Shown piece after piece: positions 1-9,262 of a stretch of 21,586 nt of DNA (its first letter is position 1; each line of letters opens with the position of its first letter). A program made the translations under genes and the position numbers. Under the pieces are notes generated by a model, which made no database searches, was not told the DNA's origin, and was given only the letters and a program-made list of their open reading frames with translations. Source of the stretch: a virus; IMG/VR virus record IMGVR_UViG_3300044858_002477, positions 1-21,586 of that record; one strand, given 5' to 3'.

Positions 1-444
1 TTCTAATTCTTGGTAACTTGGTAGATTTTTCATTTTCTGCCATCTTCTTGGCTCATCATATCTAATTCCATTAAATATTGTCCATTCTTTTAATCCAATG
101 CTTTGTAAATATCTTCTACCCGTTTGAATTTTTAGAGCATCGGTGCAAAATCTTGTTCTGTTGTTCGGTAAAAAGTGCTTTTTATGTGCAATTAATTCCT
201 CAAATGGTCTGCTATCCCTTGAAGCGGTTTCATAATTTACAACCTCAAAATTGTTACCATATCGGTATTCAAGCCAAACAATATTCAAATTCCAGCGTTT
301 ATCACATTCATTAATGAAATCCAATGTTTGCGGCATTTCCTTTCCCGTGTTCTGAAACGTAATCAAGTATTCACCACCTTCATCGATTAGCCTTTTGGTC
401 ATATATGCCGATGTTCTGCCACCGCTGAAATTTATTATATTCAT
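1..444 (-). CDS. PAPS reductase-family (PP-loop) protein, partial
   Basis: This reading frame stays open to the left window edge, so only the first 148 residues are seen. The N-terminus has a PP-loop of the phosphoadenosine phosphosulfate reductase type (SGGRTSAYM, residues 7-15), the ATP-pyrophosphatase fold that adenylates or reduces sulfur compounds. Further family-like motifs are RFCTDALKI (about residues 105-113) and GIRYDEPRRW (about 131-140). The start ATG overlaps the stop of the upstream 49-aa gene as ATGA, which suggests translational coupling. Phage members are common but their substrate is usually unknown; DNA phosphorothioation (DndC-like) or cysteine/thiol metabolism are possibilities that the sequence does not decide. 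The family call is firm; the function is open. Confidence 0.85.
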   Translation of the reverse strand, partial: MNIINFSGGRTSAYMTKRLIDEGGEYLITFQNTGKEMPQTLDFINECDKRWNLNIVWLEYRYGNNFEVVNYETASRDSRPFEELIAHKKHFLPNNRTRFCTDALKIQTGRRYLQSIGLKEWTIFNGIRYDEPRRWQKMKNLPSYQELE

Positions 445-590
445 TTGTATAGCGATTTGAAAAAATTACTAATCCATTCTTGTACTTCTTCAAATGTACC
501 TATAAAAATAGGTTGCTTTTGATTCGTGTAAATTTCAGGTTTAAAATTAAAACCAACGCAGTATTTATTTTTCATACAATTTATATTCAT
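441..590 (-). CDS. Small hypothetical protein, 49 aa
   Basis: A short reading frame between the terminase large subunit and the PAPS reductase-like gene. It begins at ATG 590 and ends with a TGA that overlaps the next ATG (ATGA). The protein starts MNINCMKNKYCVGFNFKP and has an aromatic, amphipathic C-terminal half (EEVQEWISNFFKSLYK). A second in-frame ATG lies five codons in. I recognise no family. Tight packing and the coupled overlap are the reasons to call it a gene. Confidence 0.55.
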   Translation of the reverse strand: MNINCMKNKYCVGFNFKPEIYTNQKQPIFIGTFEEVQEWISNFFKSLYK

Positions 591-8685: not shown

Positions 8686-8739
8686 AAAAAAAGCCTCATC
8701 GAATTAGCGTGGTAAGAGCACAACTAATTCAACAAGGCT
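8686..8739 (-). terminator. Intrinsic terminator hairpin before the nuclease-like gene
   Basis: On the minus-strand RNA, 8724-8739 pairs with 8692-8707: AGCCU, then UGUU against GAUG through wobble and U-A pairs, then GAAUUAG with CUAAUUC, giving 16 continuous pairs. Three more pairs (GUG/CAC) close a 7-base loop, and seven U residues (8692-8686) follow the stem. The G-U pairs exist only in the minus-strand RNA and would be A-C mismatches in the plus-strand RNA, which fixes the direction. It ends three bases before an ATG, so it could act as an attenuator as well as a terminator. Confidence 0.85.
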
Positions 8740-8830
8740 AATATCGTTTTAAACTTTGGACTCTCTTACAATCCAGTTTGTTCTATTTTCAAACAAAAGA
8801 GAGCAGTCGGTGTGTTACTACTCCCTTTGG
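8686..8830 (-). ncRNA. Structured leader or small RNA between promoter and terminator
   Basis: This stretch has no convincing reading frame. It lies between a promoter match and the terminator, giving a transcript of roughly 145 bases. A first hairpin is formed by CTCTCTT (8803-8797) and AAGAGAG (8767-8761), with an inner GTTTG/CAAAC stem (8794-8790 with 8780-8776). The terminator hairpin follows. The terminator loop CTCTTAC (8718-8712) is exactly complementary to GTAAGAG (8769-8763) in the first hairpin. It could be an independent small RNA or a cis-acting attenuator for the nuclease-like gene. I recognise no known RNA family. The 5' end is estimated from the promoter. Confidence 0.55.
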
Positions 8831-8835
8831 TTTAA

Positions 8836-8865
8836 CAAATATAACTATTTATTTTCTAATTGCAA
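8836..8865 (-). promoter_or_regulatory. Bacteroidetes-type promoter
   Basis: On the minus strand a TTG (within TTTTTG, 8865-8863) is followed after 19 bases by TATATTTG (8843-8836). This matches the TTG-N19-TAnnTTTG pattern of Bacteroidetes primary-sigma promoters. Transcription should start a few bases downstream, near 8830, within the structured non-coding stretch. The -33 element lies inside the end of the preceding gene. Confidence 0.7.
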
Positions 8866-9051
8866 AAATCCTGTGTGTTTATTTGTTTCAAGTGCTTTAA
8901 TGTAAGCCACTTCAACTTTTGCGGTCTCAACAATCACCTGTGCAACTCCGACAATCGCCTCGGCTTTGTCGACTGCCAGTTCACCATCTTTCAGCATTTC
9001 CAACGCTTCAAAGAGGTGGTTGCGTAAATCTTCAATTTTGTTTTTCGGCAT
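8845..9051 (-). CDS. Conserved phage protein, 68 aa, helical
   Basis: The protein begins MPKNKIEDLRNHLFEALEML and continues ELAVDKAEAIVGVAQVIVET and AKVEVAYIKALE. This arrangement of a short first helix and a long second helix matches a small phage family I recognise by pattern; its function is not known to me. The open frame extends upstream to 9123, but that part lies inside the preceding gene, so the ATG at 9051 is preferred. The promoter for the downstream RNA lies across the end of this gene. Confidence 0.75.
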   Translation of the reverse strand: MPKNKIEDLRNHLFEALEMLKDGELAVDKAEAIVGVAQVIVETAKVEVAYIKALETNKHTGFLQLENK

Positions 9052-9262
9052 CTCCGTAATTTTCGTTAAAATAAATTTCCCCATCAGGGTTATTTGTAAA
9101 GTCCAAAGTGTCACCATATCCATCCGTCATACCTTGTTGGTATGCTTTAATGATATTATCCCTTTCTATCTTTTCGGCTTGTTCTAATTGCTTGATGCCA
9201 ATAGCCCCTTCGTTATCGTAGTATTGACCAATAAGCCATTGTAGTGCGGTTTGTTTATTCAT
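9032..9262 (-). CDS. Small conserved phage protein, 76 aa (paralogue of 5835-6062)
   Basis: The protein shares KQTA at its start, IIKAYQQGMTDGYGDT in the middle and YFNENYG at its end with the 75-aa protein at 5835-6062, so the two are paralogues. The central insert differs (YYDNEGAIGIKQLEQAEK). The function is unknown. Its ATG overlaps the TGA of the 77-aa gene as ATGA. Confidence 0.7.
   Translation of the reverse strand: MNKQTALQWLIGQYYDNEGAIGIKQLEQAEKIERDNIIKAYQQGMTDGYGDTLDFTNNPDGEIYFNENYGDAEKQN

Follow-up and report, generated by a model that had tools for sequence, protein, structure and literature searches.

A leader RNA with a predicted kissing-loop terminator at the head of the replication operon of Bacteroidota phages

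In the pR′–tR′ (6S RNA) gate of phage lambda, a constitutive promoter is followed by a short terminated leader and then by the operon. Another phage-encoded structured RNA, the C4 antisense RNA of P1/P7-like phages (Rfam RF01695), acts by complementary loops. The C4 RNA is listed in PMC2864571, and the IsrK leader small RNA of Gifsy-1 is a case in which one promoter gives rise to a terminated small RNA and to the read-through mRNA of the operon (PMC4825925). The CI RNA of the satellite phage P4 base-pairs with its own transcript at two complementary sites (PMC4825925). Among plasmids, the rep leaders of the I-complex/IncI-alpha group (RNAI kissing, repZ pseudoknot) and the RNAI/RNAII pair of ColE1 control the replication initiator by loop-loop contacts (PMC10724649, PMC9458437), and a few loop bases fix the compatibility of IncK plasmids (PMC10724649). 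Here we describe a leader that stands before the replication block of many Bacteroidota viruses. Two of its hairpin loops match each other exactly although their letters differ from one virus to the next, so that it resembles a switch RNA not described before that carries its own identity tag.

Anatomy of the leader in the window

The window, i.e., the whole 21.6-kb stretch analysed, is the IMG/VR virus record IMGVR_UViG_3300044858_002477. Its phage genes lie mostly on the minus strand and include those for terminase, portal, amidase and replisome organizer. The gap 8844-8683 (minus strand) holds a TTTG-N19-TATATTTG promoter, three hairpins and an intrinsic terminator, and is followed by a nuclease gene (Table 1). 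A preliminary description of this DNA had called it the longest non-coding gap between genes, which is correct, since the sole longer gap (445-610, after the terminase gene) contains a 49-aa ORF (441-590, minus strand) with its own TATATTTG promoter box. The TTG-N19 promoter recognised at that time was also borne out, as the 19-nt spacer and the two elements agree with the Bacteroidota −33/−7 consensus, TTTG / TAHHTTTG (PMC6847099). Flavobacterium start sites lie 4-5 nt past the −7 element (PMC6847099), and the position of this element therefore predicts a start at about 8831 and an RNA of about 145 nt, close to the start near 8830 and the 145 bases originally proposed.

Table 1. Leader features and the first two genes of the operon, in positions of the window
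Feature	Positions	Strand	Basis
−33 promoter element TTTG	8866-8863	−	sequence; consensus from PMC6847099
−7 promoter element TATATTTG	8843-8836	−	sequence; consensus and spacing from PMC6847099
Hairpin 1 (5′ hairpin)	8835-8788	−	fold; found in the window, L001 and L006 only
Hairpin 2, AAAC-U-GGAUU-[K]-AGUCC-AAA-GUUU, with A-rich bulge	8779-8751	−	fold, class-1 alignment
K, 7-nt apical loop of hairpin 2, GUAAGAG	8769-8763	−	sequence, fold, covariation
Intrinsic terminator: 20-pair stem 8739-8693 and U7 tail 8692-8686	8739-8686	−	fold, covariation
K′, 7-nt terminator loop CUCUUAC, exact complement of K	8718-8712	−	sequence, fold, covariation
First gene, 167-aa PD-(D/E)XK nuclease, EndoMS/NucS-like	8682-8179	−	alignment, AlphaFold2 model, Foldseek
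DnaA/DnaD-like replisome organizer	8176-7421	−	PHROG 6251 E 2e-45, PHROG 1701 E 1e-34

The preliminary description counted two hairpins and the fold gives three. Hairpin 2 is the homologue of a hairpin that is near-invariant among the class-1 leaders described below. The U-run of the terminator is followed by AUU and then by the AUG at 8682-8680, so that the terminator ends three bases before the nuclease-like gene, and its stem is intact in minus-strand RNA only (−23.4 kcal/mol, versus −14.6 kcal/mol for the plus strand, where the stem is broken), both as first reported. The whole leader folded at −50.7 kcal/mol on the minus strand with a z score of −6.6 (0 of 200 shuffles), versus a z score of −2.0 on the plus strand. 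A generic sigma-70 promoter/terminator scan of the window did not report the leader's terminator, so such scans would miss the element. We regard the anatomy as near certain.

Absent from the preliminary description was the complementarity between K and K′, which form a predicted kissing loop, formally a pseudoknot of the order 5′-K...T...K′...T′-U7. Pairing of K with the 3′ arm of hairpin 1, possible in the window, is lost in L001 and L006 and hence was put down to chance. The leader's own K was not enriched as a second target within 2.5 kb (0.065 versus 0.078 per kb), and the leaders share no ORF, one of at least 8 codons being present in 14 of 71. A leader-peptide attenuator was discarded on this count, and the sole partner found for K is therefore the same RNA. 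The folds of the window and its relatives showed no conserved alternative pairing of the antiterminator kind.

The alignment of the nuclease has invariant residues D44, E73, K75, Q86 and Y90. Its AlphaFold2 model (pLDDT 90) had EndoMS/NucS structures 5gke and 2vld as top Foldseek matches, which are distant (probability 1.00, E 4e-3, TM about 0.46), and a sequence-profile search in PDB and Pfam gave no match. The model suggests that the protein is a distant, minimal EndoMS-like relative. The replisome organizer encoded next is the conserved kind of downstream gene. Its N-terminal half shares 58% identity with a part of Listeria phage LP-030-3 that bears no annotation, and is near Geobacillus phage initiators too, unexpectedly close across phyla. 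On the other side of the leader, a 92-aa protein (8845-9123, minus strand) matches PHROG 2044, labelled 'RNA polymerase beta subunit'; given the small size of the protein, this label is probably spurious. A partnership between this protein and the RNA, after the manner of Rop, was rejected because outside the window the protein occurs only in L001; the gene upstream of the leader is not conserved across relatives.

Related leaders and the genes that follow them

Homologous leaders were found in more than 100 phage records, including those of cultured Flavobacterium, Cellulophaga and Tenacibaculum phages, with the complementarity kept and different K sequences. Relatives of the 167-aa nuclease are encoded on 68 viral contigs, and nearly all of their upstream regions have the promoter, K, a terminator with K′, the U-run and the AUG. 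An alignment-free comparison was carried out on 46 non-redundant loci chosen solely by the downstream nuclease, with loops swapped between loci as the control. The longest complement between the 5′ region and the terminator loop reached at least 7 nt in 80% of these loci versus 7.7% after swapping, and at least 8 nt in 39% versus 2.3%. K lies within a hairpin loop in class 1, to which the window belongs, in a larger loop in class 2 (e.g., L020 and L034), and in a free 5′ segment of 10-12 nt in L044 and L070. L006 has the promoter and hairpin 1 in common with the window and a different RNA body, and Bacteroides phage BF1-TP2 encodes a relative of the nuclease without such a leader. In leaders with a longer spacer (L020, L023, L027, L034, L041, L062 and L071), the stretch from the U-run to the ATG contains a conserved box resembling AATACGGAATGT / TACGGAACGT; similar letters, AACGGAATGT, sit in hairpin 2 of class-1 leaders.

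A pattern scan that required the promoter and the class-1 hairpin, left K free and made no demand on K′ matched 64 stretches. Full leaders made up 43 of them, every one with an exact 7-nt K′ (43/43); the remainder were two leaders truncated by the contig end and 19 chance matches without such a K′. The nuclease follows in 11 of the 43 full leaders and other genes in 32, which led us to reject an association of the RNA with the nuclease. The tie to this gene implied by the preliminary description did not hold for the same reason: the RNA precedes many unrelated first genes, and in cultured phages it stands before replication modules that have no nuclease. The nuclease is an optional passenger of the RNA. 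The other first genes encode DUF6291-, DUF4373- and other helix-turn-helix-like replication initiators (family names by inspection), followed by small genes and then by a DnaB-like helicase. The initiators belong to several unrelated families. At least five unrelated initiators follow leaders of the K type GUCGCAU, and no fewer than six K types accompany the initiator family MAIFRKIH.... K type and initiator family thus vary independently, and K is not the DNA site of the initiator. Most genomes have one copy of the leader. The 62-kb record IMGVR_UViG_3300043436_000818 has two (L138 and L139), with different K and two different initiators; at about twice the size of its relatives, it may consist of two phages of about 30 kb joined in assembly.

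The leader heads the replication operon in all of the cultured phages in which it was found. These are Tenacibaculum phage JQ (K AGCAUCCUAC, with a 10-pair K:K′), Cellulophaga phages phi10:1 and phi19:1 (K GUACGAC), Cellulophaga phages Nekkels_1 and Nekkels_2 (two nested pairs, AUUGGAA and GUCUAAC) and 46 records of Flavobacterium phages, Lillamyvirus and Muminvirus included. Four such genomes were scanned gap by gap, and in each of them the replication leader was a strong match, with 0 of 60 shuffles reaching its score and 0 of 60 reversed-gap controls scoring 25 or more. The parts of the leader are exchanged as modules: phi10:1 and the Nekkels phages have a common promoter (49 nt, 98%) and different RNA bodies, and Lillamyvirus snork (GUGAGACG), Lillamyvirus morran (GUGAGAAG) and Muminvirus snusmum/mumin (GUGGAACG) differ in K. 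In snork, morran and snusmum, the changes in K are matched in K′ within near-identical RNAs, and the downstream genes differ (primase or helicase).

Two possible second cassettes were also observed. One, in Nekkels_1 (L145, 13447-13697), has K CUACCUUAC, nine pairs and a terminator; it precedes the portal gene and has a further hairpin terminator immediately upstream, and it suggests that late operons could use the same device. The other, in Flavobacterium phage snork6-1 (L146, 12836-12979), has GUCGUCG / CGACGAC before an endonuclease gene, and its K differs from that of the replication cassette.

The class-1 pattern was found in 0 of 395 Bacteroidia genomes, and a prophage or plasmid state was rejected on this ground. 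Of 397 genomes of the Maribacter family, one was found to have the nuclease. The annotations of JQ, of 49 kb of Nekkels_1 and of 50 kb of phi10:1 list no integrase. Most carriers of the leader thus seem to be virulent phages, and this speaks against prophage immunity of the classic kind.

Covariation and replacement of the loop pair

The class-1 alignment comprises 35 RNAs. In this alignment, 97.7% of the cells were paired versus 84.2% after shuffling, and covariation was 0.489 versus 0.224 ± 0.010 (0 of 500 shuffles), with slid controls at or below 0.145. The stem of hairpin 2, GGAAU/AUUCC, is highly conserved. The terminator helix varies on both sides at 12 of its 20 pairs, with many G-U steps. 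The K:K′ helix is 100% paired and varies on both sides at five of its seven pairs, with 71 double-changed cells, no one-sided ones and strict inverted identity without G-U pairs. The mean pairwise difference is 0.40 in K and 0.028 in the stem that holds it. These results strongly support the function at the RNA level that had been proposed, through the compensatory changes in the terminator stem and above all in the loop-loop helix. The covariance analysis recommended in the preliminary description gave the reverse of a sequence kept while its stems are lost, as the stems of the relatives keep their pairing by compensatory change. An attenuator or an independent small RNA, the two functions it offered, remains the right pair of alternatives.

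The loops are replaced as a block. Among sequences with 10-16% divergence elsewhere, 41.5% of the variable K pairs were double-changed and 0% single-changed, versus 2.9% and 17%, respectively, of the terminator pairs; this replacement, about 10 times faster than that of the terminator pairs, is indicative, as the sequences are not independent. The K duplex energy had a mean of −9.2 kcal/mol and an sd of 0.86, versus an sd of 2.24 for all GUNNNNN (P 0.00025 by sampling), and is likewise to be taken as indicative, since K types are phylogenetically non-independent. Two explanations of the block replacement remain: selection may favour new matched tags, or template switching may copy one inverted loop into the other.

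Proposed working and comparison with known systems

Between the promoter and the first gene lies an intrinsic terminator, and in Flavobacterium RNA structure close to the start codon tunes translation (PMC6847099). As promoter and terminator bracket a compact RNA immediately ahead of the first gene, the simplest reading is that the leader gates the replication operon by attenuation. The strength of K:K′ is held at about −9 kcal/mol while its sequence is rapidly replaced, so that a self-recognition tag is its most likely role. We propose that the leader is a pseudoknotted transcription attenuator of the replication operon with K:K′ as the tag, and assign to this reading of the sequences a probability of roughly 0.45. 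The host-type promoter would fire straight into the compact RNA, whose first hairpin would present loop K. As the terminator hairpin emerges, K′ would kiss K by seven Watson-Crick pairs (7-12 in relatives), and RNA polymerase would stop at the U-run, short of the first gene of the operon, releasing an RNA of about 95-145 nt; read-through would give the operon mRNA. The tag would let a leader recognise its own kind, in cis and possibly in other copies in trans, and ignore the leaders of other phages.

The same pairing could be a structural element acting in cis only, which locks the terminator or shields the short RNA from nucleases while K drifts and any match works. The kissing is conserved almost everywhere, always with an adjoining terminator, and no other partner of K was found nearby, as expected for such an element. 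However, drift should leave one-sided or G-U intermediates, as it does in the terminator stem with its 17% single-changed pairs, and K:K′ has neither kind in the 35 aligned RNAs, with double changes 10 times more frequent. We hold this reading possible, on the unlikely side.

A trans-acting immunity or copy-control RNA would fit a K that is hypervariable, strictly complementary and of near-constant strength, in a leader that opens a replication operon, as the P4 leader does. Once released, the leader would use K or K′ to base-pair with leaders of its own phage type while they are being transcribed, and force them to terminate; a replicating genome would thereby repress the replication genes of itself and of incoming kin, and K would define an exclusion group, after the manner of P4 CI RNA or of plasmid incompatibility. 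Yet K and K′ satisfy each other in cis, which should blunt pairing in trans, the phages seem non-lysogenic from the genome counts given above, and their own K is not enriched nearby. We consider such a role unlikely. An RNA-based self/non-self system, widespread in virulent Bacteroidota phages, in which a fast-evolving kissing-loop code in the replication-operon leader would let the leader RNA of each phage act on its own kind during co-infection and pass over others, is a reading that we also regard as doubtful.

We give little weight to an independent small RNA or ribonucleoprotein, for example one in which a phage or host protein binds the kissing helix, with a target other than the downstream operon. 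Its own promoter adjoining the first structured base, the strong terminator and the conserved hairpin 2 stem would suit it, but the leader constantly opens replication operons whose genes are otherwise unrelated, and the genes upstream of it are not conserved, which argues for a link to the operon. A DNA-level role, with K and K′ as an inverted pair of sites bound by the replication initiator, is very improbable: their strict inverted identity would agree with it, but K type and initiator family are uncoupled, the stems surrounding the two loops show RNA-type covariation that includes G-U pairs, and the folding is strand-specific.

Little is known about gene regulation in this phylum, to whose phages the proposed attenuator adds an abundant, undescribed RNA family, placed at the decision point of genome replication. 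Its evolutionary signature is unusual: the frame stays invariant, and the loop pair it holds is interchangeable but strictly matched. This signature predicts K-specific self-recognition, and cultured phages already carry natural K variants.

That no known RNA family had been recognised at first was confirmed with Rfam 15, in which the window and 15 loci had no match at the gathering threshold and sub-threshold matches at chance level. No published description was found in the open-access literature. The leader RNA is a new, undescribed family, and its way of working is closest to those of P4-type leaders and plasmid copy-control RNAs. It shares with the lambda gate the order of promoter, short terminated leader and operon; in lambda, however, Q acts through DNA and the paused polymerase, and there are no kissing loops. 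Like the C4 RNA, it is phage-encoded and structured and has complementary loops, with a different architecture and no Rfam match. One promoter would give a terminated small RNA and a read-through mRNA as for IsrK, but IsrK controls translation of the downstream ORF and AntQ, and no kissing terminator is described for it. The plasmid rep leaders and ColE1 have in common with the leader loop-loop pairing at the point where the replication initiator is controlled, and there a few loop bases define compatibility. In those plasmids the regulating RNA is antisense and comes from the other strand, whereas both loops of the leader are on one strand and one of them is the terminator loop. The replication operon of P4 likewise opens with a short leader RNA (CI RNA / seqA-seqC leader), with complementary segments on one transcript and premature termination (PMC4825925), to which K, K′ and the predicted termination of the leader correspond. 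The P4 RNA is processed from its transcript, acts as a prophage immunity factor and has further target copies up- or downstream, whereas K showed no enrichment within 2.5 kb; the leader, in contrast, ends at an intrinsic terminator, pairs loop-to-loop with that terminator and is carried by phages that are seemingly not prophages.
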